This document shows, piece by piece, positions 10,521-51,011 of a stretch of DNA of 64,000 nucleotides. The notes beneath the pieces were generated by a model. That model was given only the letters and a program-made list of their open reading frames with translations, did not search any database and was not told the DNA's origin. This stretch comes from Eucalyptus grandis. Lineage: Eukaryota > Streptophyta > Magnoliopsida > Myrtales > Myrtaceae. The translations under genes and the position numbers were made by a program. The stretch's first letter is position 1; the number at the start of each line of letters is the position of its first letter. The stretch spans positions 62,231,034 through 62,295,033 of the forward strand of contig NC_052614.1 in assembly GCF_016545825.1 (NCBI RefSeq), written 5' to 3'.

Positions 10521-11285
10521 TAAAACATGAGTAAACACCATGATTAACAAGTGCAAAAAAATATCGCATCACCATATGTCCTTGTTCAAGTGATAGCACA
10601 AGTCAATTCCAAATCTTCACAGGACGGAAGAGGCGAGGCCAATAGGTGGATTCAACCATTTCAACATACAAGGGAAGCTTTAGTATTGCAGACAATATGA
10701 CAGGGATGACCACCAACAAAGTAATGGGGATGTAAATCCACTTCCATCGTTTGCTTAGGACAATCACAAGAGCAGAGCCAAAAGCCACGAGTATGAAGAA
10801 GAAAGAGAGGAAGAGAAAAGTGAGGCCCAGTATCATTTTTCTTGGTAGTGAATGAAGAAAATCTTCTGCGGCATAGCGTGAGGTTAGGATAGCCAAGAAC
10901 ATCGAGGTGGCGGTGACAGAGGAGAAGAGAGATAAAGCGTTTGCAACGGTAAATACCAAGAATGAGTCCCCTTTTTGAAAGACCGGGTTACCCCTATCGT
11001 TGCTTCCAGGTACTGTAAAAGCTGCAGCAAAAGCTACTGTAAAGATGAGGGTTGATATGACGCTACAAGATGATGACGTATCCTTCATCCATTGCCCCGC
11101 CTCTTTGACCAAATCTTTTCGCTGTTCTACAAAAACTCCCCAGTATGTCTTCCCGCTCCTTTGTTTTGTTTCTTTCAATTCCAGACTTTTAGAAGGACTG
11201 CTCTTATCTTCTTTTACCTTCATCGATCAACGCAAATGTAAATTAAAGAGCGAAAAGGGTAGCAAAACAAATAAGGTGAACTGAC

Positions 11286-11333: not shown

Positions 11334-13689
11334 CTTCAGAAAATAAAGGACACCTATCAATGTGATTGTAAGTAAATTAAAGAGTGGCAAGCAAATATGG
11401 TGAACCAACCTCAAACCATTGAAGTTCCCTTTGCATAAGAAAAGCTGCTCCAGAAACATCTGCTGGTACGTATCCTGGGGACCATTCTACTACTGCCGCC
11501 ATCAGGTCGCAGTTCCTCTGAATATCGTACCTCAAATTTGGGATTGTGTTGTATCCATTCATTAGTCTAAATAACTCAACATGCCTTCCCTTCACAATTT
11601 CTTTCATCAGTTCTTTTGTGAATTGTTTATTCCACATCAACTCCAGAGAATGCTCAAGACATAACTTGACTATTTCGGAGATTCCGCCTAGATGCAGCAT
11701 CAAGGACAATGGTCGAAGTCAATTTGAGTATTTCAGGTGCTTTCATACGAGCCTTCCTCTCGTTTAAAGTTAGTTTTGCTAACTCAAGCAAGCATTCGTG
11801 GCTTACTTTCAATTCTCCAATCCTTTTGATAAAACGTGCTGCACAAACATCAGATAAGCAATTTTGCCAGCAATAAAGAATCAAAGGATATGGAGGCTTT
11901 CACATTTGTGCCGTGTTCTTACGTATATAGTAGTTGAGAAGAGAATGATGAATTCAAGATATTAATCGAGGAAGCAAACTTCATATGGCTTGAAAATCAA
12001 AATGCATGTATCAGAGAACAGATGGATCCATTGATGAACATACAAAATATCATGAGATAAAAAAAAAAGAAAAAAAAAGAAAGAGTTTTGAAAAATGGGT
12101 AGATTCAATGACAGATCAATAGATATGTTTTCAAACTGATTAGTTTTACATATTCTCTTGATGGGATACATGTCAATTAGACTTTGAATTGAATGGAATC
12201 TAATCATATCGTAGTATACAAATCAAGAGCCGATTCATATTGATAACTATGATCTCAACGGGATATGTCAATAATATCAATTTACAATTTAAGATAGATA
12301 TCTCTACCCATGGATGAAATAAGGTCCTTTTTCTATAGATACCATGGCATGTTTTTTGTCTAAAGATACCATGGCAGTTAGTGTACCTGGTTTTGTGGCA
12401 ACATTCCAGAGTAATGTCTTGAACCGGTGAGTCGCTGGTGTCACCACCATTAAGAGGAAAGAAAAATCATGTTAGCAAATTATAAATTGATGATGAACAA
12501 AAAGATACATATCAGCGCATGTAATTAAATTTATTAATGCTCGAATATGTGAGAAAAACAAATTGGATCAATCAACCTCAATAATCTGAGATCCAAATCT
12601 ATTCTCGATAATTCTACTTGACAATTTGACTTGCCTAAGTAACTCAAACTAACTTTATAAATGTTAAATTAGATATTAAGTTGTACCACACATCATGATT
12701 TAGATATTAATATTATACCCTATCCCCTAACTTTTTTTTTGTGAAGAAGATCTATGAATGATATGCTTTTTGTCATGTTAGTCCATCCATCAATCAGATT
12801 TAACAGAGATACCTCGAGCCATCTTCATGTCTTTGGTGTTGTCAAATGGTGTATCAACCAAGCAAGGGACACCTAAAAAGGGAACAGATAGAGTGAACCC
12901 TGTGTGGATGAGTTGTTTGAATTGTACAAATCTAGCAAAAGCAAAAGAAGCGCAAGAAGTACCTACATTGGTAAATACATTTTTCCCAAAAATTGAGTTT
13001 AGCTCCACTACGGTAGTAGGACTTCACATGCACAAAGACTTCCAACAGGCCATTGTTTTGGGTATCAACCGACGTCGCTAAGTCACGGTATTGGTGAGCT
13101 AAATACAAGAGTATGTCTTTTGGGACACGAACAGAAAAGTAAATTAAAGTGAACAGTGAATTAAATTAAAGTGAACAGTTAATTAATTGAGATAAGAAAA
13201 GTGAGTGTGAAATCCTACCCAAATGGCTGGCCTTAATAAGGTTCATCATGATATCATTACGAGAGGGGTATGTTATACGCTTGGCCAGGTACCAGATAAC
13301 CTCCTTTTGCTTAGGAATACTTCTCGTAGCAGACAACAGGGCATCGTGTACCGTAGATTCACCACGGACTTTTTCAAGTTGTTCTATTGATTCCTTTGCC
13401 CTCCTTATTCTTCCTTTCTGGGCGGCAACGCAGAAGGCTTGATCTAAGCCGCGAGCTTTAAGTTCCCGAGGGATGCGCTTTAGCAGTTTCTCCACCAATT
13501 CATCTTGTCCAGTCACAGCCGCAATATTGAGCACAGTAAAGTCACCATCACCATCTTCTATGGTCATAAGTTGGGCCGTCATTGCTTCGGGATCTTTAGT
13601 GAGGATTCTCTCTATCGCTTTCCAATCACCTTTTAATGTGGCTTCAAACAATTGTCGATAATTTTCATCAACCACCGGTGGCGGCTCGA

Positions 13690-16600
13690 CTGCAAATATT
13701 GCACATTAAAAGTCCTCAGTCTTTAAAACTTCCTGCTTTTACGATGATGCAAAACAAGGGGCAGTCCTTTACTCAACATTGCTGTTCCTGTGAGTGTCTT
13801 TCTTTACTGTTTGGAAGTCTAAAGTTTTTTTTTTTTTGGTTGGGCTTTGTCAATTACAATTCAAGATATTCTTATGATTTTAAAAACTATGAAAATATTA
13901 TATTTGAATTTTTATGTCAGCATTTGGACCCCGTGAAGTTTAAAATGTTTTGTATTACACAAAGTCAAAATCCAAGAAACACAATATTTATGAAAAAGGA
14001 AAAATTAATGGTTCAAAGTGACAAACCCCTGGGTGTTTTGTAACCGTCTTGGGATGCTTTATCAGTCACTGTGTCTTTTGAACTCCAGTCTAGGTGAATC
14101 TCTTTGCAACCAAAAAGAGAAATGAACACAAATAACCTTAAAAATAATAATTAATTACACCTTGTATACTATAGATCATCTATTCCAGACTGATCAAGCT
14201 CATTCATTGCATGAAATTTTCTGTATTGAATTTAGATAGCGAACTTTTAAACAAGAAAAATTACACGTTAAAATGAAGGAAGGTCCTGAATTTTTTTTTT
14301 CGAGATAAGTATTATTTCATCAATTAGTTTTTTGGGACCTTCAAACTGTCATATCTTGGACAATGTGTTTTTAGTGAGTTCTTATTTTTCATTGCCATTG
14401 ATCGTATCCGCTATATCATTAATAACTAATGAGCACGATCTTTTACTCTTTCGAGGTATTTTTTTTTTTTTTTTGGGATTTCTTTGTATTAATTCAAGAT
14501 ATTATTCAAATTTTAAAAATTATGAGAAGATTAAATTTGAATTCATATCTCAGCATTTGTATGCTGTAAAATTTAAAAAGTTTCAGAGTAAAATAAACCA
14601 AGATGCATCCTCCAACACAAGATTAATGAAAAATAACAATTAGAAGTTTAAAGCGAAACAACTTTAGTTGGTTTGCGATTGCCTTGGAAAAGCTTTGTCA
14701 GTTGCCGTGCCTTCTGGATTTACATTTAAGAGAATGTCTTTAATAACAACAGGAGAGGATAAAGATACGACAAGTGTTAAAAATTTTATATGAGCGTCAT
14801 AACTTTTTTTTTCCATCACTCAAGTGTCATATCAATGAAAATTTGTTTATTTGGAGTGCCGCGATTCATTGGTTTATTGATTTTGGCAGAGTGAGACTTG
14901 TTCAACATGTATCAACTTATTATGAACGACTTAGATAAATCCTATTTAATCAACAGAGAAAGGGATGGCTCCATTGGCAACGGCGTACCCTGCACTGCTT
15001 CATCAAGAGAATTTTGTATTTCTGAAGGATTGGTTTCTTTGTTGGAGTCCACGTCCACACAAACATCTTGGATAATAGAAGGAAGAAAACCAGAGTTGAC
15101 GCAAATCGTCTTTCTGAAACTTATATGTTCCTTCAATTTAGCGGGGCGAAAAAGCTGAATGGTCACCCTATAATCTAGAATTTTTAAATGGGGACATTTT
15201 GCGTATTTACTGTTTGCTTGAAACGAATAGTCATGCCATGGGCTCGAGAAAATGAATCAACTAGCAGTATTTCGTGGCCACACATTGCTTTTGCATTTTT
15301 AGTTCGTGGGAATTAAAACTTTTCAGCCTTTGTAATTAGTTCCAATTGAATATGCCGCCAAACTAGATAAAGGAAACAAAGAAATTATAAGACCACATCG
15401 CTCATACCATAAATTTTTCTTGGTTGGGACATGAACATGTCTGTACCTGGTGGTGGTTCTACAAGATCCGAATTTCCTTGTGTTTCACTTTCTTCCGGCG
15501 CCATTGGGTTTCTCTCCTCATTGCAATCTTTCAACAACAAAGTAAACAGAGGATGCAAAAATGGATAAAATATTCAATTATCAAAGAGTTCTAGTCTTCC
15601 TAGGCCGAGTTCATTCCTTCCTTTTATACAAGTACCTCCCCTAATATAAACCTACACCTAGAGCAAGTAAAGCATATAATTCTTTATTCACTTTATAGCG
15701 AGTGGAATACTTTTCTTTTCTTTTCTTTTTTATCGAAGCGGTTGGATTACTCGAGTGTAAAAAGGATTTTTTTTTTTTTTTTGAATATGAAAAAGATTAT
15801 CACTAGAAATAAAGACTAGACCTTTACAAGTTGGCAAGTAAGCTCAAGCTCTAGGGCCACACATAATTAGGTTAAATACCTAGTGATCGAACTATTACTT
15901 GAAGGTAACTCTCTGTCTCTCTTTTTTATGATACAGTTCATTCTATTCCTTGAGACCAAAGGAGTCTTTTCCAAGTTAAGCAACTTCTTTCTCGAGCTCG
16001 GGAAAGTTATTCGGGCAAGTTATTTTACAAGCTTTTAGCTGAATAAATCTATCGGCAAGAACGGGCATCTCACTTTGTCTGGTCCAAAAATAGGTATAAG
16101 GACATTAGAAGTATCAAAAGTTTCATCACTCATAATAGTGACAACCATTTTTATTGAATCATTATTTTTGGCTTAGAACAACAACATGATTTCCTTTCTG
16201 GAGATGACTAAAGTGAATTGATTAGCTCGAGAATCATGTCTTTAAAAGATGAGTCATGTAGTCTCTTAATGATAAGTAATTAAATATTCAAAACCCGTTT
16301 GTTTAGCCGTACGCTCTTGACGAAATTGCTTTGTTGGACAACCAACTGCCAATCTGATTCGCATTTCAAGTAGAAATGGAAAATAATTAGTCTTCGCAAG
16401 GTGATTGCTCGGACAAAACTTTCCGATAAGAGGAAGTTTTCTGGTAGTTAATTTTAATGAACTGGTCATTGAGTTCTTATGAGTGACGAAACTAGGATTG
16501 ACAAAAAGCAGTCGCACCATCATCCAAAACTAGGAGGGAACTTGTGCAGCCAAGTCATACCAAATTTAGGATATTTGACTTTGAGTAATACGTTTTGCTT

Positions 16601-19600
16601 TTGCTTACTGGTTTTTCGAATCAATCAACTGTATTTGATGGCCACACATTGCTTTTGCATTTTTACTTCATTGTTAGAAATTTATTTATCTTTGGTCCCT
16701 GTATTTAGTTCCAATTACATATGCCACCAAACTAGATAAAGGAAACGAAGAAATTATAAGACCACATCGTTTACACCATAAATTCTTCTGGGTTGGAACA
16801 TAAATATGTACCCGGTGGTGGTTCAGCAGGATTCGAATCTCCTTGCATTTCACTTGGTTGCGGCGCCATCAGGTTGCTCTCCTCATTGCAGTCTTTCAAC
16901 AACAAAGTTATGGAGGATGCGAAAATGGGTAAGATATCCAATTATCAAAGAATTTTGGTCCCCCTAAGCGGAGTTCATTCCTTCTTTTTATAGAAGTACC
17001 TCGCCTAATGTAAAGGTATGCAAGTAAAGCATAACTTGTTTTTATTTTGTTTTTACGTTATAGTGGTTGGATTACTTGGGTGAAAATGATTATCACTAGG
17101 AATATAAACAAGACCTATACAAGTTGGCAAGCAGGCTTAGATCATTAGGTTCATTTCCCAGTGATCAAACCGTTGCTTTAAGGTGACTTTGTCCCTCTTT
17201 CTTAGGATAAAGTTCATTATGTCCCTTGACACCGATGGAGTCTTTACCAAATTAAGCCATTTCTTTCTCGGCTTAGGCAAGCTATTTAGGCAAGTTAATT
17301 TGCAAGGCTTTAGCCGAATAACGCCATTCGCAAAAACGAGTGCCTCAACTTTGTCGAGCCCAAAAGCACAAGTAAGAAACTTCAATTCCATAAATTTGCT
17401 TAATGTAGAAAATAGTTAGGTTTCTTCAAAATTTCTCTTTTTGACAAAATTAATTTCTAAGGAAGTAAAATCTAAAAATAAAGAGAAAACATAATGCATT
17501 TAATATATAAGGGATATCCACAATAAAGAAAAACAAAACATGTGATGTTCTTAGTTATGGCAACTAGATCCTACACAGAAATGGAAAAGTTCACAAAAGA
17601 AGGAAAGTAAATAAATTGAGGGCTACCACTTAAAATTGCAATTGAATAATTAAGGGCAACTTTGTCTTTTAAAGAAAATGAGGTGCATTTAGTCGGATAA
17701 GGTATGGAAATAGCGGCACCCGAAAGTTTTCATCTAATATATAATGGAAATTTTCCAATATTTTCATTTCTAAATTTGTCAATAAAAGTACGTTTGGTAA
17801 AAGTTTTGATTGCTGTGTTTGAAAATGAATACAGTTAAACTTGGAAAATTTAATCACACTTTGTATGCTTTAGATCTTGCATAGATGACTGGTATCAGGC
17901 TCATACACTGCAGTGGAATTTTCTGCACAAAACTTATATTGGTAAATTTCTAAACAAGAAAAATTAACAGAGATCATGAGTTTTTATAAATATGTATTGA
18001 ATCATGAATTAGTTTGGTGAGACCTTCTAAGGGCCCGTTTGGTTTAGCTTTTGGAGAATATATTTGCAGAAATGCAAATACCTTTGGGTGAAGGGGGTTT
18101 TCCGAAATGCAAATGTCGTTTGGTAAAATTTGCATTGAGAAACAACTTTAGCCAAAATACCGTTTGGTAAAATTTGCATTTGTAATTAACTTTTATTAAA
18201 TTAAAAAAGAAAAAATATGTTTATATTTTTTTTTTGAAGTCCGGCCATCGGACCGCCGAATCCGACGGCCGAACCGCCCGAATAAAAAATATGTTTATAT
18301 TTTTTATATAAACATATTTTTATATAAAAATATATAAAATATTAACATAAAATATATATAAAAATAGATATGTTTATATAAATATATATTTATATAAAAA
18401 AAAAATCGGAAAAAAAAATAGATATGTTTATATTTATAAATATATATATTAAACATAAAATATAAAAATAGATATGTTTATATTTATAAATATATATATA
18501 TATATATATTAAACATAAAATATAAAAATAGATATGTTTATATTTTTTATATAAAAAATAAACATAAAATATATGTTTATATTTTTATATAAAATATAAA
18601 ATATATATTTTTATATAAAATATAAAATATATATTTTTATATAAAAATATAAACATATTTATTTTTATATAAACATATTTATTTTTATTTGTATTTTTAT
18701 TCAGGCGGCCGATCGGCTTCTCCACCGGAGAGATGAACAATACCGGAAGTTGCATTCCGAAGATGCAACTTTCCAAAGGACCTCAAGAGCTGCATTAGGC
18801 TAAAGGCCCTTAGAGCCACTTGGAGATGCAATTGCATATCGCCAAAGTCGCGCAAAAAAACGAATCAAACACCTTTGCATTTAGCCAAGGGACTTTAGAG
18901 CCCCAGATGAGCATTCCAAATGCTGAACCAAACAGGGCCTAAGTTTCATACATCAAACAATGCGTTTTTACTGAGTTTTAATTCGTAGTTGCCATTGATC
19001 TAATCCACGATATCATTCATACATTGTAAGCGCGTTTTGTTCCTCTTTGGAAGTAAAAGAGTATTTCTTTTGGGGGTTTCTCAATTATAGATATTGTTCA
19101 AATTTTTTAAAAAATGAAAAGATTATCTCGTAAGTTTATACGTTAGCATTTGTATGCTGTGAAATTCAAAGTGATTTGGACTAACAAAAGTCAAAATGCA
19201 TTAAACAAAAGGTTTATGAAAAACTAAAATTAAAAGCTTAAAAAGAGACAAACCTCTAGGTTTTTTGCGACCAACTTGGGAAGCTTTATAAGTTGACATG
19301 CCTTCTGTAGTCCCTTTTTCGTGAAACTCTTTGTTACCTAAAATTCAATGAATATAAATAACCTAATTAATTATACTCTATATGCTTTAGATCATGTATA
19401 CATTATTGGTATCAGGCTCGTTCATCACATGGCATTGTTTGCATGAAACTTAGATGGTAAAATTTTAAGCAAAAAAAAAAAATCAACGTTAAAGATCGTG
19501 AGTTCTCTCTTTTTTTTTTTTTTTTTTTTTTTTTTCAGATAGGTATCAAATTAGGATTTAGTTTTGTGGGACCTTCTAGGTTCCATATATTGGATGAAAT

Positions 19601-21352
19601 TCAAAGTGACTTGTACTAACAAAAGTCAAAATCCATGAAACACATGATTTATGAAAAACGAAAATTAAAAGTTTAAAGTGATAAATGTCTGGTTGTTTTG
19701 CAGCCACATTGAGAAGCTTTATCAATCGCCATGCCTTATGAGCTCTCTTCTACGTGAACTTCTTTGTTACCATAAAGAGAAACGAATATAATCAACCTTA
19801 GAAAATTAAATTCCACTTCGTATGCTTTATATCATGTATACTAGCTCAATCATTGCATGAATTTTTTTTTCATTGAACTTAGATGGTAAATTTTTAAACA
19901 AAAACAAAATTAACGTTAAACTTAACAAACATCACGACTTTCTTTTCGAGATAGAAATTGTATCATCAATTAGAGGGAGGGACGTTCTAGCTTTCATATA
20001 GTGGACAATGAGATTTTGTAAGTTTTTGTCTCATTGCGATTGATCTTATCCATGATATTGTTAAGTAAATTATGAGCACATTCTTTTACTTTTCGGAAGT
20101 AAAAAATAAAAAAAAAAAATTGGCCATTCTCAATTATAATTCAAGATATTATCCAGATTTTAAAAATTGTAAAAAGGTTATATTTCAATTTATATGTCAG
20201 CATATGTATGCTCTGAGACTAGAAGTATTTGGGATTGAAAAAGTTAAGATGCTTGAAAATCAAGATTTATGAAAAACAAAAATTAAAAGTTCAAAGTGAC
20301 AAACTTCTGGTTGTTTTGCAACTATCTTGGCAAGCTTGATCAGTTGCCATGTCCTCTAAACTCAAGTCTATGCAAACCTCTATGTTACCAAAAGAGAAAT
20401 TTACATAAATAACTTTAGAAAAATTAATTACATTTTGTACGCTTCGGCCTCAGTCAGTTGGGAAATATCACTTTTAGCCCCTATACTTTGGTTATAAGTC
20501 CAGTCCTCATACTGTTCTATGGTGACAATTTAAATCACTTGGTTAAAATTACCGGGACAAAGAATTTTGCATCCCCAATAATTTGGATGTAATCTCTTTT
20601 TCAAAAAGAATTTTTTTTCCGATGATTTAGTTGGACTTTCCAAATTATTTAGGAGTCATTTTCTGTTGGTCACACCAGAAAATTCTAAGCAATGTCTTTT
20701 TAGGGTACGTACTTGAGTCCATCGCATGATTTTAGGTAACCTGGACTCAGGTTAAGAACATAACTTTAATTGTATGAGTTCCAGCTGAGTCGAATCGACA
20801 TTTTTGCCTCTTGAGTTAGCTCATGTTTTTAAGGTACATTCGGTTTACCGAAATGTTTTAGTGAAAATTGCTCCTTATTTTAACTTCCATTTTCTTGAAA
20901 AGACATTTGGAGGGTGAAAAGTAAGAGCTTTCAACATGAATGGAAGTTATAGAAACACGTCAGGTGTAGTTGTTTAAAGCAAACCCCGTAAATATATTGT
21001 CAATTTTGGTCGTTTTGAGTTTTAAAGCTCAGATATTGAAAACACGACAACCAAAATTTCTACCGAACGTATTTTCACTGAAAACTTGTGGAAAGAAAAA
21101 TAGGAAATTGGAAAATTTTCAAAGACCAAACACGCCCTCAAGTTCGGCACAAATTATTCTCCTTTCACACTCTTTCCTTTCTTACAAGGGTTTTCTTTAT
21201 AAAGTGTCGGGATACTTGTTAAGTAATAAATAAATAAAAATGTTGCCATTTTATATTACTTAGAAATTAACCCCAAAAAGCGACACTTTTTCAATATTTC
21301 CATCACCCCTTGGGATGAAATCAGAACAAAGAAAGGAAAGAACAGAACATAC
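13690..21352 (-). other. Phase-1 cassette-exon array of copy A
   Basis: Type A cassettes, about 75 nt, coding for a variant of EVH..SS..MATDKASQDGCKTTR: 20305-20379, 19254-19328, 14027-14101, all open. Degenerate ones are at 19687-19761 (in-frame stop, donor GT lost) and about 14664-14738. Type B cassettes, 81 nt, NEESN.MAP..SE.QG.S...EPPP: 16812-16892 and 15447-15527. Every open one starts after AG with two bases that complete a G-phase codon and ends one base into a codon (phase 1-1). The encoded segment is polar and probably disordered. The surrounding intron sequence (starting 'aattataattcaagatatta', ending 'atcatgtatacatga..aggctcatt') is repeated with each cassette. Whether each is spliced in vivo needs transcripts. 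Confidence 0.7.
18031..18939. mobile_element. PIF/Harbinger (Tourist-like) MITE, 909 bp, TSD TAA
   Basis: Ends GGGCCCGTTTGGTT and AACCAAACAGGGCC form a near-perfect 14-bp inverted repeat flanked by TAA (18028-18030 and 18940-18942). The paralogous site in block C (about 45925, 'gaccttctaagtttcat') is empty with one TAA. The interior has a strongly self-complementary AT tract (18285-18700) between two GC-rich ~40-base patches. No transposase. Confidence 0.88.
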
Positions 21353-21480
21353 CTGGCGCTAGTTCTTGATCCATGGAGGTTTCCAAGCCGTGCCGCGAGC
21401 AGGTAAAACTCTAAAGCGGAGAAGTAATTTCAAGGGATTGAAGTCGAAGTTGCTTTCTGCTCCCATGGGTCTTCTTTCTT

Positions 21481-34920: not shown

Positions 34921-34995
34921 CACACAGTAACAAGTACAACAAAGATCACACCGCAGATATCCTTGTCTCATAATAATAAAGATCGCTTCCAAAGC

Positions 34996-37913
34996 TTCAG
35001 GGGACGGTAGAGACAAGGCAAATAGGTGGATTCGACCATTTAATATACAAGGGAAGTTATAGGATTGTGAACAATACAATAGGGCTTATAGGATTGTGAA
35101 CAATACAATAGGGAAGATAGCCGACAAAGTAATTGGGATATGAATCCACTTCAATTGTTCACTCAAGACGATCATAAGAGCAGATCTGAATGCCATCCGC
35201 ATAAAGGCAAAAGAGAGGAAGAGAAAAGTGAGGCCCATTGTCATTTGTCTCGGTATTGAGAGAAGGAAATCTTCGATTGCGTAACTTGAAGTTAGGATAG
35301 CCCAGATGACGAAGGAGAATAGAGTGAGCATCTTCAACCACAAATACCATGAACAAGCCCTTCTCAAGGAATGCTAGGATCCCCATACTACCATCGTTGC
35401 CTCCAGTACCGTAAAAGCCATAGCGAAAGCTACCGTAATGAAGAGAGTTGCAATGAGGCTACAAGATGATGATGTATCCTTCAACCATTGCCTTGCCTCG
35501 TTGAGCAACTCTTTGCGTTGTTTTACCGAAACTTCCCAGTTTGTTATTTGTTACCTAGAAATTTCAGCCATTTAAAAGAAGGAAAGCTGCCAGCTTCCAC
35601 TACCTTCAGAAACATAAAGGATGCCTATCAATGTAAATGTCAATTAAAAAGCACAAAAGGGAGGCAAACATATGAAGAGAACTAATTTGGAACCATTCAA
35701 GTTCCCCTTGCATAAGAAAAGCTGCTCCAGAAACATCAGAGGATACACATGTTGATTACAATTTGGTCACAGCCTCCATTACGTCTATCTCGGTCGCGAT
35801 ATTATTGGCGAATGTCCAATGTGGTTGCGTGCGTTCACTAGTCTAAACAACTCAACATGCCATCCCTTCACAACTTCTTTTATAAGTTTTTTTTTTTTTT
35901 TTTTTGTCGAAATTGCTATCCCACATCAACTCCAGAAATGTTGAAGACATAAATCCACAATTTCAAAGATTCCGCGAGTTGCAGAGTCAAGGACAATGTC
36001 AACGACAATGCCTGATGTCAGCAGAGGCTCGAGTATTTTGGCAGTTTGATTGCAAGCCTTATCTCCATAAGAGCTAGTTTTACAAAGTCAAACGAGCAAT
36101 CGTGCCTTAACTTCAATTCCCCACTCCTTCTAATGAAAGGTGCTGCATGTAATATCAGATAAACAATTTTCCCAACGAGAAAGAATCAAAAGGTTAAAGA
36201 GGCTTTCACATTTGCGCCGTGTTCTTATGTATATATAGGAGTTGAGAGAAAATAATGGATTACGTTATTAATTAAGAAAACAAACTTGATATGGCTTGAA
36301 AATCAAAATGCATGCATCAGAGAACAGATGTATATATCGATGAAAACACACAATGTGATGAAAGAAAAACAGAGTTTTTTTTCTTTTTCTTTTTTTGAGA
36401 AATGGGTAGACTCAGCGGTGGATCAATTGATATGTTTTTGATTGAATATTTTTACAATTCACCCGATGCATACATATAGTATAAATTTGAACTAAATTGA
36501 TTAGAATCAAATTGTATGGTAGTATACTATCAAGAGTTGGTCCATATTATTAACTATGATTCCAAGGGGATATATTGAAAGTATGTGCATGCACTTTAAA
36601 TTTAGAGATTTCTAACCATGGATGAAATGAGGTTCTCCTTGTATATATATAACATGGCACTTTCATGTACCTGCTATTGTGGCAAGATTCCAAAGTGATA
36701 TCTTGAACCGGTTAAATGCTAGTAGTGCTATCATTATAAATAGGAGACAAGAATCATGTCAACAAAGACAAATAAAAACATAAATATCACACTCGTGACA
36801 TGAAAATTACTAATGTTTTATAATGCTTGAATTCGTTTGAAAACAACTTCAATCAATCAACCTCAGTTACCTGAAATAAAAAATTATCAATAATTTTACT
36901 TGGCAATTTGACATAGAGTAAGACTTCTACTCGTGCTTTTCAAATGTTATATTAGATATTAATTTGTGACATACATCATGATTAGGACATTAATTTGTAG
37001 ACATAGATGTTGTCCTTGTCCTATAACAATTTTGTCAATAAGATCCCTGATTGATATGCATTTTTTTTTCCTTTTGTGTAAGTCCATCCAGTAAACAAAT
37101 CAATAAAAATACGTCGAGCCATCTTCGTGTCCTTGGAGTAGTCAACTGATGAATCGACCAAGCATAGAGGAATACCTAAAGATTGGAACAGATAGACTGA
37201 ACACAATGTAAATGGAATTTCTCGAAATAATTAATATATATTTATTTATATCTAACAATAGAAGTGCAAGAACTACTTACATTTGTAAATAGATTTTCCC
37301 AAAAATTGAGTCTAGCTCCACTGTGGAGAAAACGAAGTATCAATGTTAAGATTATACAAACTTTGTAGTAGCTGCCTTCGGATGTCATTGACCACGGAAT
37401 TTGTGAGCTGAATACAAGCATAAGTCTTTTGGGACACGAGAACAAAAATGTTAATTCAAGTAAATAGTGAAGGAATGAGATGAGTGAGTGTGAAATCCTA
37501 CCCAAATGGCCGGCCAGAGTAATGCTGAACAAAGTATCATTAGATGGGAAGGAGCAAATAGAGTACCAAACTCTAATGCATTGCCTATAATTTTAGGTTC
37601 AGCATCAATTTTGTCTATTAATGCCTTTACCATCCTTATTCTTCCTCCTCAGTAGCATAGCAGAAGGCCCTGTTGGGATTAAGATTTTTATATTTTGGAG
37701 GGAAGTGCTTGACCAGGTTCTCGACCAATGGATCTTGTGCAGCCATAATCGCAATATCGAGCATAGTAAAGTGATTGCTTTCTATGGTCATAATTTTGGC
37801 CGTCATTGCTGCGTGGTCTCTATTGAGCTTTTCCTCAGTAGTTTTCCAGTCACCTTTCAACACGGCTTTAAAAAATTGTCGATATTTGTCATCAACCACC
37901 GCTTTTGGTATGA
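34996..37913 (-). pseudogene. Ankyrin-repeat/PGG protein, copy B, decayed
   Basis: Same exon order as copies A and C. The ankyrin exon, about 37500-37913 (FFKAVLKGDWKTTEEKLNRD), lost bases after CYAT, shifts frame at about 37635 and has an internal deletion of the VIWYLAKR stretch. The next exon (about 37283-37427) contains stops. Two small exons remain open at 37118-37176 (IPLCLVDSSVDYSKDTKMAR) and about 36671-36720 (FNRFKISLWNLAT). The 35690-36150 exon has several frameshifts. The PGG exon (34996-35540) has an internal deletion around FSFVIWAILTSS and a 33-base tandem duplication at 35048-35115. There is no initiator exon or cassette array: upstream sequence at 37930 switches straight to another downstream module. 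Confidence 0.85.
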
Positions 37914-37929
37914 CTGCAAAAATTGCACA

Positions 37930-38409: not shown

Positions 38410-50908
<12,499 letters not shown>

Positions 50909-51011
50909 GGAGGTTTCCTTGCCGTGCCGCGAGCAGGTAAAACTCTAAAGCGGAGAAGTAATTTCAAGGGGTTGAAGTCGAAGTTGGTTTCTGCTCCCAT
51001 GGATCTTCTCC

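Follow-up and report, generated by a model that had tools for sequence, protein, structure and literature searches.

The 64-kb stretch of Eucalyptus grandis DNA analysed here (the window) carries two ankyrin-PGG genes in tandem on its minus strand, gene A at 10.6-21.4 kb and gene B at 38.4-50.9 kb, which share one layout of initiator, mini-exon array and ankyrin body. The locus raises the question of whether these mini-exons are coding and, if so, whether their reiteration allows one gene to make many N-termini, as a sequence-only reading of gene A had proposed, or sets a different tail in each gene.

Organization of gene A

In gene A, the 22-nt initiator is separated from the ankyrin exon by five open mini-exons (75, 75, 81, 81 and 75 nt), all of which are bounded by AG...GT, have lengths that are multiples of three and lie in phase 1-1. 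They fall into two sequence types, type I (75 nt) and type II (81 nt), and in sizes, phases and types the sequence-only reading is confirmed. Its claim that any subset of cassettes could be included without a change of frame also holds, since all units are phase 1-1 with lengths that are multiples of three. To these elements the present analysis adds a sixth open candidate (X), two decayed type I copies, an exon-less type I flank and copy B. The features of gene A are as follows:

21353-21374, minus strand: initiator exon, 22 nt, MDQELAP, phase 0-1 (ends after codon position 1)
20305-20379, minus strand: type I cassette, 75 nt, phase 1-1, with matching modules in P0001 and P0003
19681-19761, minus strand: decayed type I copy with an in-frame stop and the donor GT lost; end approximate
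19254-19328, minus strand: type I cassette, 75 nt (or 84 nt using the AG 9 nt upstream)
17823-17882, gene A: type I flank without exon
16812-16892, minus strand: type II cassette, 81 nt, phase 1-1, EPPP at end
15447-15527, minus strand: type II cassette, 81 nt, phase 1-1, EPPP at end
14989-15066, minus strand: candidate sixth cassette X, 78 nt, open, phase 1-1
14653-14737, minus strand: decayed type I copy with an in-frame stop; ends approximate
14027-14101, minus strand: type I cassette closest to the ankyrin exon, 75 nt
13219-13689, minus strand: ankyrin exon, begins VEPPPVVDEN
11410-11838, minus strand: exon 6; compared with Corymbia P0015 and gene B it carries a +1 frameshift near 11687
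10603-11226, minus strand: PGG-domain reading frame (transmembrane part), PF13962, 82 bits

The sequence TATAAAAG lies approximately 100 nt upstream of the gene A initiator and is common to gene B. On the minus strand at 50867-51010 and 21353-21465 it stands directly before an ATGGGAGCAG in another frame, and the TATA distance suggests that transcription may start after the other-frame ATG of ATGGGAGCAG, which would make the cassette initiator the first ATG. The N-terminus of another E. grandis protein, P0009 (LOC108958793), starts with the other reading frame of this 5' exon common to A and B, and therefore at least one further gene carries the A/B 5' end.

An insertion of approximately 0.9 kb in a gene A intron (18031-18939) is missing from gene B at the matching point. 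It has the inverted ends GGGCC.GTTTGGTT.AGC with TAA on either side, and resembles a Harbinger-type MITE.

A search with the first 330 residues of gene A, which was limited to proteins whose length is 0.55 to 1.75 times that of the query, returned seven proteins, none of them near-identical, and a search with a 227-residue gene-A N-terminus gave 87 candidates and none at E<=0.001. Because of the frameshift in exon 6 and the lack of a near-identical protein among those returned, gene A may be a dead gene (a pseudogene), truncated or misassembled.

Gene B and its annotated product

In gene B the corresponding features are:

50869-50908, minus strand: initiator exon, 40 nt, MDIQDSSIPKPSP
47476-47559, minus strand: type I cassette, 84 nt in RefSeq (upstream acceptor, adds GNK); the other AG would give 75 nt
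46859-46933, minus strand: type I cassette, 75 nt
46235-46307, minus strand: decayed type I copy of 73 nt that has lost its frame; not in the RefSeq model
44299-44379, minus strand: type II cassette, 81 nt
42957-43025, minus strand: type II cassette, 69 nt (in-frame deletion of 12 nt)
42209-42280, minus strand: type I cassette, 72 nt (in-frame deletion of 3 nt)
41888-41986, minus strand: extended type I cassette, 99 nt
38410-41368, minus strand: gene B body, from the ankyrin exon through the PGG exon

The RefSeq protein LOC108958266 isoform X2 (P0001, Eucalyptus grandis) is found with 739 of its 740 residues exactly in gene B, and this placement shows that it contains all six open gene-B cassettes, in order. 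It departs from the model made in our analysis at two acceptors, that of the first cassette, which lies 9 nt upstream of the AG that we had chosen, and that of exon 6, which lies later. Because P0001 uses all six open copies, the gene-B mini-exons count as annotated coding modules in a protein of the ankyrin-PGG (ACD6-like) kind, the RefSeq exons being those of a predicted gene model. The modular N-terminus proposed from the sequence of gene A thus stands insofar as its gene-B equivalents are exons of a RefSeq protein.

Homologous exons, an equal phase on both sides and similar introns, the marks of a tandem exon array, are found in both genes. Unit models derived from the open copies identify 10 type I units with an exon, 4 type II units and 2 extra type I flanks without an exon in the window, and all type I and type II matches fall inside genes A and B. 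A dispersed transposon was considered as the source of the units and rejected, the unit models matching nothing else in the window.

It is extremely improbable that the mini-exons are not exons at all, only chance open spans within repeated intron sequence. Size and phase prove nothing by themselves, because the region contains as many as 78 open phase-1 AG-GT spans of 45-129 nt; the case for the mini-exons is built on homology between copies, the gene-B RefSeq model and the neutral-decay simulation given below. For gene B the RefSeq model contradicts the chance explanation directly, in that the mini-exons match its predicted exons with two acceptors differing, and the modules also tile in relatives.

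The first intron of gene B contains a stretch of approximately 2.4 kb (47.7-50.1 kb) that has no gene A match, is GC-richer than its surroundings and is probably an insertion. A third ankyrin-PGG body, detected by tblastn in several frames at 34986-37914 on the minus strand and seen with no adjoining cassettes or initiator, is probably a degraded copy.

Family membership and relatives

The PGG domain (PF13962) is recognized in gene A at 82 bits and in gene B at 93 bits, against a cut-off of 24.1. Ank_2 reaches 24 bits in gene B with a cut-off of 27.3, and the gene A ankyrin exon, which has no Pfam match, aligns at 55% to Corymbia P0015; the relatives have precomputed Ank domains. Solved structures yielded a single weak match (5eil, E 0.00066), confined to the ankyrin part and uninformative for the tail. 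The PGG domain together with a probable ankyrin part, and the kinship by name and architecture with ACD6 and Lr14a, support the earlier assignment to a defence-type family.

Type I or II modules were detected at E<0.01 in 18 of the 30 proteins fetched, using profiles built partly from P0003, P0004, P0010 and P0015; several of the 12 proteins without modules have short or truncated N-termini. Profile matches tile the N-termini of P0001 and P0003 almost gap-free, and the arrays recur in Syzygium, Corymbia and Eucalyptus. The number of modules ranges from none in P0018 (Syzygium oleosum), in which the initiator leads directly to the ankyrin part, through two type I modules in P0010, five profile matches plus the 99-nt extended module in P0001 and six modules in P0003, to eight in P0011 (E. 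globulus). What diversity can be seen separates genes, which have 0 to ~7 modules, rather than the transcripts of a single gene. In Corymbia P0015 the ankyrin part is preceded by part of a type II module, a module like X, a type I segment of reduced length and a type I module, which is the gene A order II, X, decayed I, I; the counterpart of candidate X in the same relative place has 20 of 26 residues equal, as counted by eye. A contig of 2,231 bases (P0019) with an open frame of 637 residues joins two type I modules to the ankyrin part and is most likely a spliced transcript.

P0011 (E. globulus ACJRO7_016096) contains five consecutive type II modules, four of which are very alike, and this run reads as a recent local amplification.

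Retention of the reading frame

Seven of the ten type I copies with an exon keep their frame and splice sites and are free of stops, a proportion that becomes 7/12 if the two exon-less flanks are counted. Neutral decay was simulated on the flank tree at three indel rates, the first of them zero. Without indels a mean of 1.2 type I copies stayed intact (P 0.00025-0.00075), and with indels a mean of 0.35-0.51, none of 4000 runs reaching seven; when frame and stops only were scored and splice sites ignored, P was ~0.20 without indels and 0-0.003 with them. All four type II copies are intact, for which the three rates gave P values of 0.098, 0.0275 and 0.009, or of 0.39, 0.10 and 0.04 on frame alone. 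The three in-frame length changes (12, 3 and 24 nt) are all multiples of three, as against one frameshift.

The residues present a different picture. Type I exons have diverged like their flanks (means of 0.319 vs 0.316 over 45 pairs) and their pooled pN/pS is 1.05, so that constraint on type I residues is weak or absent; the pooled value for type II is 0.52, and the A-B bodies give a dN/dS of 1.10 from the ankyrin exon to exon 5. Three A-B pairs matched by position show changes at 8 of 44 synonymous sites and at 17 of 181 nonsynonymous ones, a difference that is not significant (Fisher p 0.11). The reading frame has been kept while residues changed freely.

The flank-like divergence of type I exons and their pN/pS would also be expected if the array were passive baggage, that is, functionless tandem duplicates in an intron that are spliced in as they happen to be open and drift to loss, and the three broken type I copies among ten, the two more reduced to a flank and the 12 of 30 paralogues with no module detected (several with short or truncated N-termini) point the same way. 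Such an origin is nevertheless quite unlikely, as open copies outnumber those expected from neutral decay with indels, length changes have been in frame with the one exception, type II has the lower pN/pS, and arrays are found again in all the genera named above.

A shared 5' half and divergent bodies

Within the segments of the 5' half aligned by BLAST, which run from the promoter to a point beyond the second type II exon, noncoding mismatches between A and B number 601 in 5700 (10.5%), whereas in the body they number 306 in 1133 (27%; Fisher p 7e-43). Identity drops from 87.5% to 40-66% at 15.29-15.0 kb in A and 42.8-42.5 kb in B, a step that sits in the array intron separating X from the last type II exon. 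In the body tree, A joins Corymbia P0015 (100/98) and Syzygium oleosum proteins (92/91), while B lies in another clade. The simplest reading of these sequences, and one that we infer, is that the 5' half moved between paralogues by recombination or gene conversion with its junction in the array intron. As the step lies inside that intron, divergent bodies would thereby have gained a common 5' half with the frame kept, the join being frame-safe because every array unit is phase 1-1.

A probable modular and disordered tail

Residues 1-174 of P0001, the cassette region, have a pLDDT under 50 in an AF2 model that is weak overall (mean pLDDT 55.5, pTM 0.38, 20 sequences), as would suit a disordered tail. 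Taking these observations together, we consider it fairly probable that the mini-exons are genuine coding exons and that together they encode an N-terminal tail, modular and probably disordered, on ACD6-like ankyrin-PGG membrane proteins of the Myrtaceae. Three exon types, all phase 1-1, would have been amplified in the first intron as whole exon-plus-intron units. The main transcript probably includes most open units, and the length and make-up of the tail would therefore be set by the number of units in the gene. Units that are frame-neutral could duplicate, be deleted or decay with no harm to the frame, and recombination inside the array, which may also have caused the divergence step described above, could join the common 5' half (promoter, initiator and distal cassettes) to different ankyrin bodies in frame. 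The tail might affect channel or immune function.

Alternative use of the cassettes

A further claim made for gene A was that subsets of cassettes would give one gene many N-termini, a view under which tissue or stress would pick the subsets. Every unit is frame-neutral, P0001 takes one cassette from an acceptor lying 9 nt upstream, and several models are named isoform X2, which implies that other isoforms exist. E. grandis P0016 (LOC104438189 isoform X2) lacks exactly 25 residues that are present between identical flanks in P0012 and P0027, and so resembles a product with a skipped cassette; however, these records differ in species or source, and exon loss explains them equally well. So far the claim is unsupported: the gene-B RefSeq model holds all six open cassettes, and the only isoform pair fetched, P0029/P0030 (Syzygium oleosum), has identical N-termini and cassettes and differs in the middle of the body. 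Cassette donors match the consensus much as body donors do (5-7 vs 5-8 of 9), and donor strength as a sign of skipping showed no clear difference between the two. Regulated exon skipping in Arabidopsis is reported to be depleted in protein-isoform events (PMC7807721) and wheat Lr14a is represented by a single cDNA (PMC7878491). Combinatorial splicing is accordingly doubtful; the modularity that the sequence does display is evolutionary. The wider proposal, that the frame-neutral first-intron array is at once a splicing-tunable disordered tail giving many N-termini and a safe zone in which a shared promoter-cassette half repeatedly recombines with diverging bodies, is unlikely. If true, combinatorial use would be unusual for a plant gene, and the Eucalyptus array offers a direct test case for the combinatorial splicing of such arrays.

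Comparison with known systems

In the open-licence literature we found no paper on alternative splicing of ACD6-like ankyrin-PGG proteins and nothing on Eucalyptus grandis ankyrin-PGG proteins or on the splicing of Myrtaceae ankyrin-repeat genes, titles retrieved for tandem duplication of Eucalyptus ankyrin-repeat genes concerning other subjects; nor was a PEVK exon paper found there. ACD6 is described as an ion channel for calcium with a link to salicylic acid signalling (PMC12273917), and Lr14a as a possible calcium channel that confers rust resistance (PMC7878491). ACD6, ITN1 and Lr14a resemble genes A and B in having an ankyrin exon followed by the PGG transmembrane part in a defence-type family (PMC7878491, PMC12273917), but in the text consulted no reiterated N-terminal exon array is described for them, Lr14a having three exons and a single cDNA version.

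Closer in its manner of growth is CENP-C of grasses, in which a poorly conserved and fast-evolving plant region has been lengthened by exon duplication and loss within the gene (PMC549713). There, exon pairs are present in 1-3 copies in a single-copy gene, whereas the Eucalyptus array consists of single exons of three types, in up to ~7 copies, and its genes form a tandem family whose 5' halves are shared.

The array also resembles the symmetrical class 1-1 modules of animals, its exons being frame-neutral, approximately 25-28 residues long, duplicable and skippable. The PEVK exons of titin are likewise frame-neutral and can be duplicated and skipped. With a visible boundary where a young, shared 5' half meets old, divergent bodies, the phase 1-1 array would provide a tractable case of exon-level modular evolution in a plant, a lineage in which assembly from symmetrical modules played a minor role according to Patthy (PMC6335736). 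It differs from the animal modules in that alternative use is only a candidate property of the Eucalyptus array.
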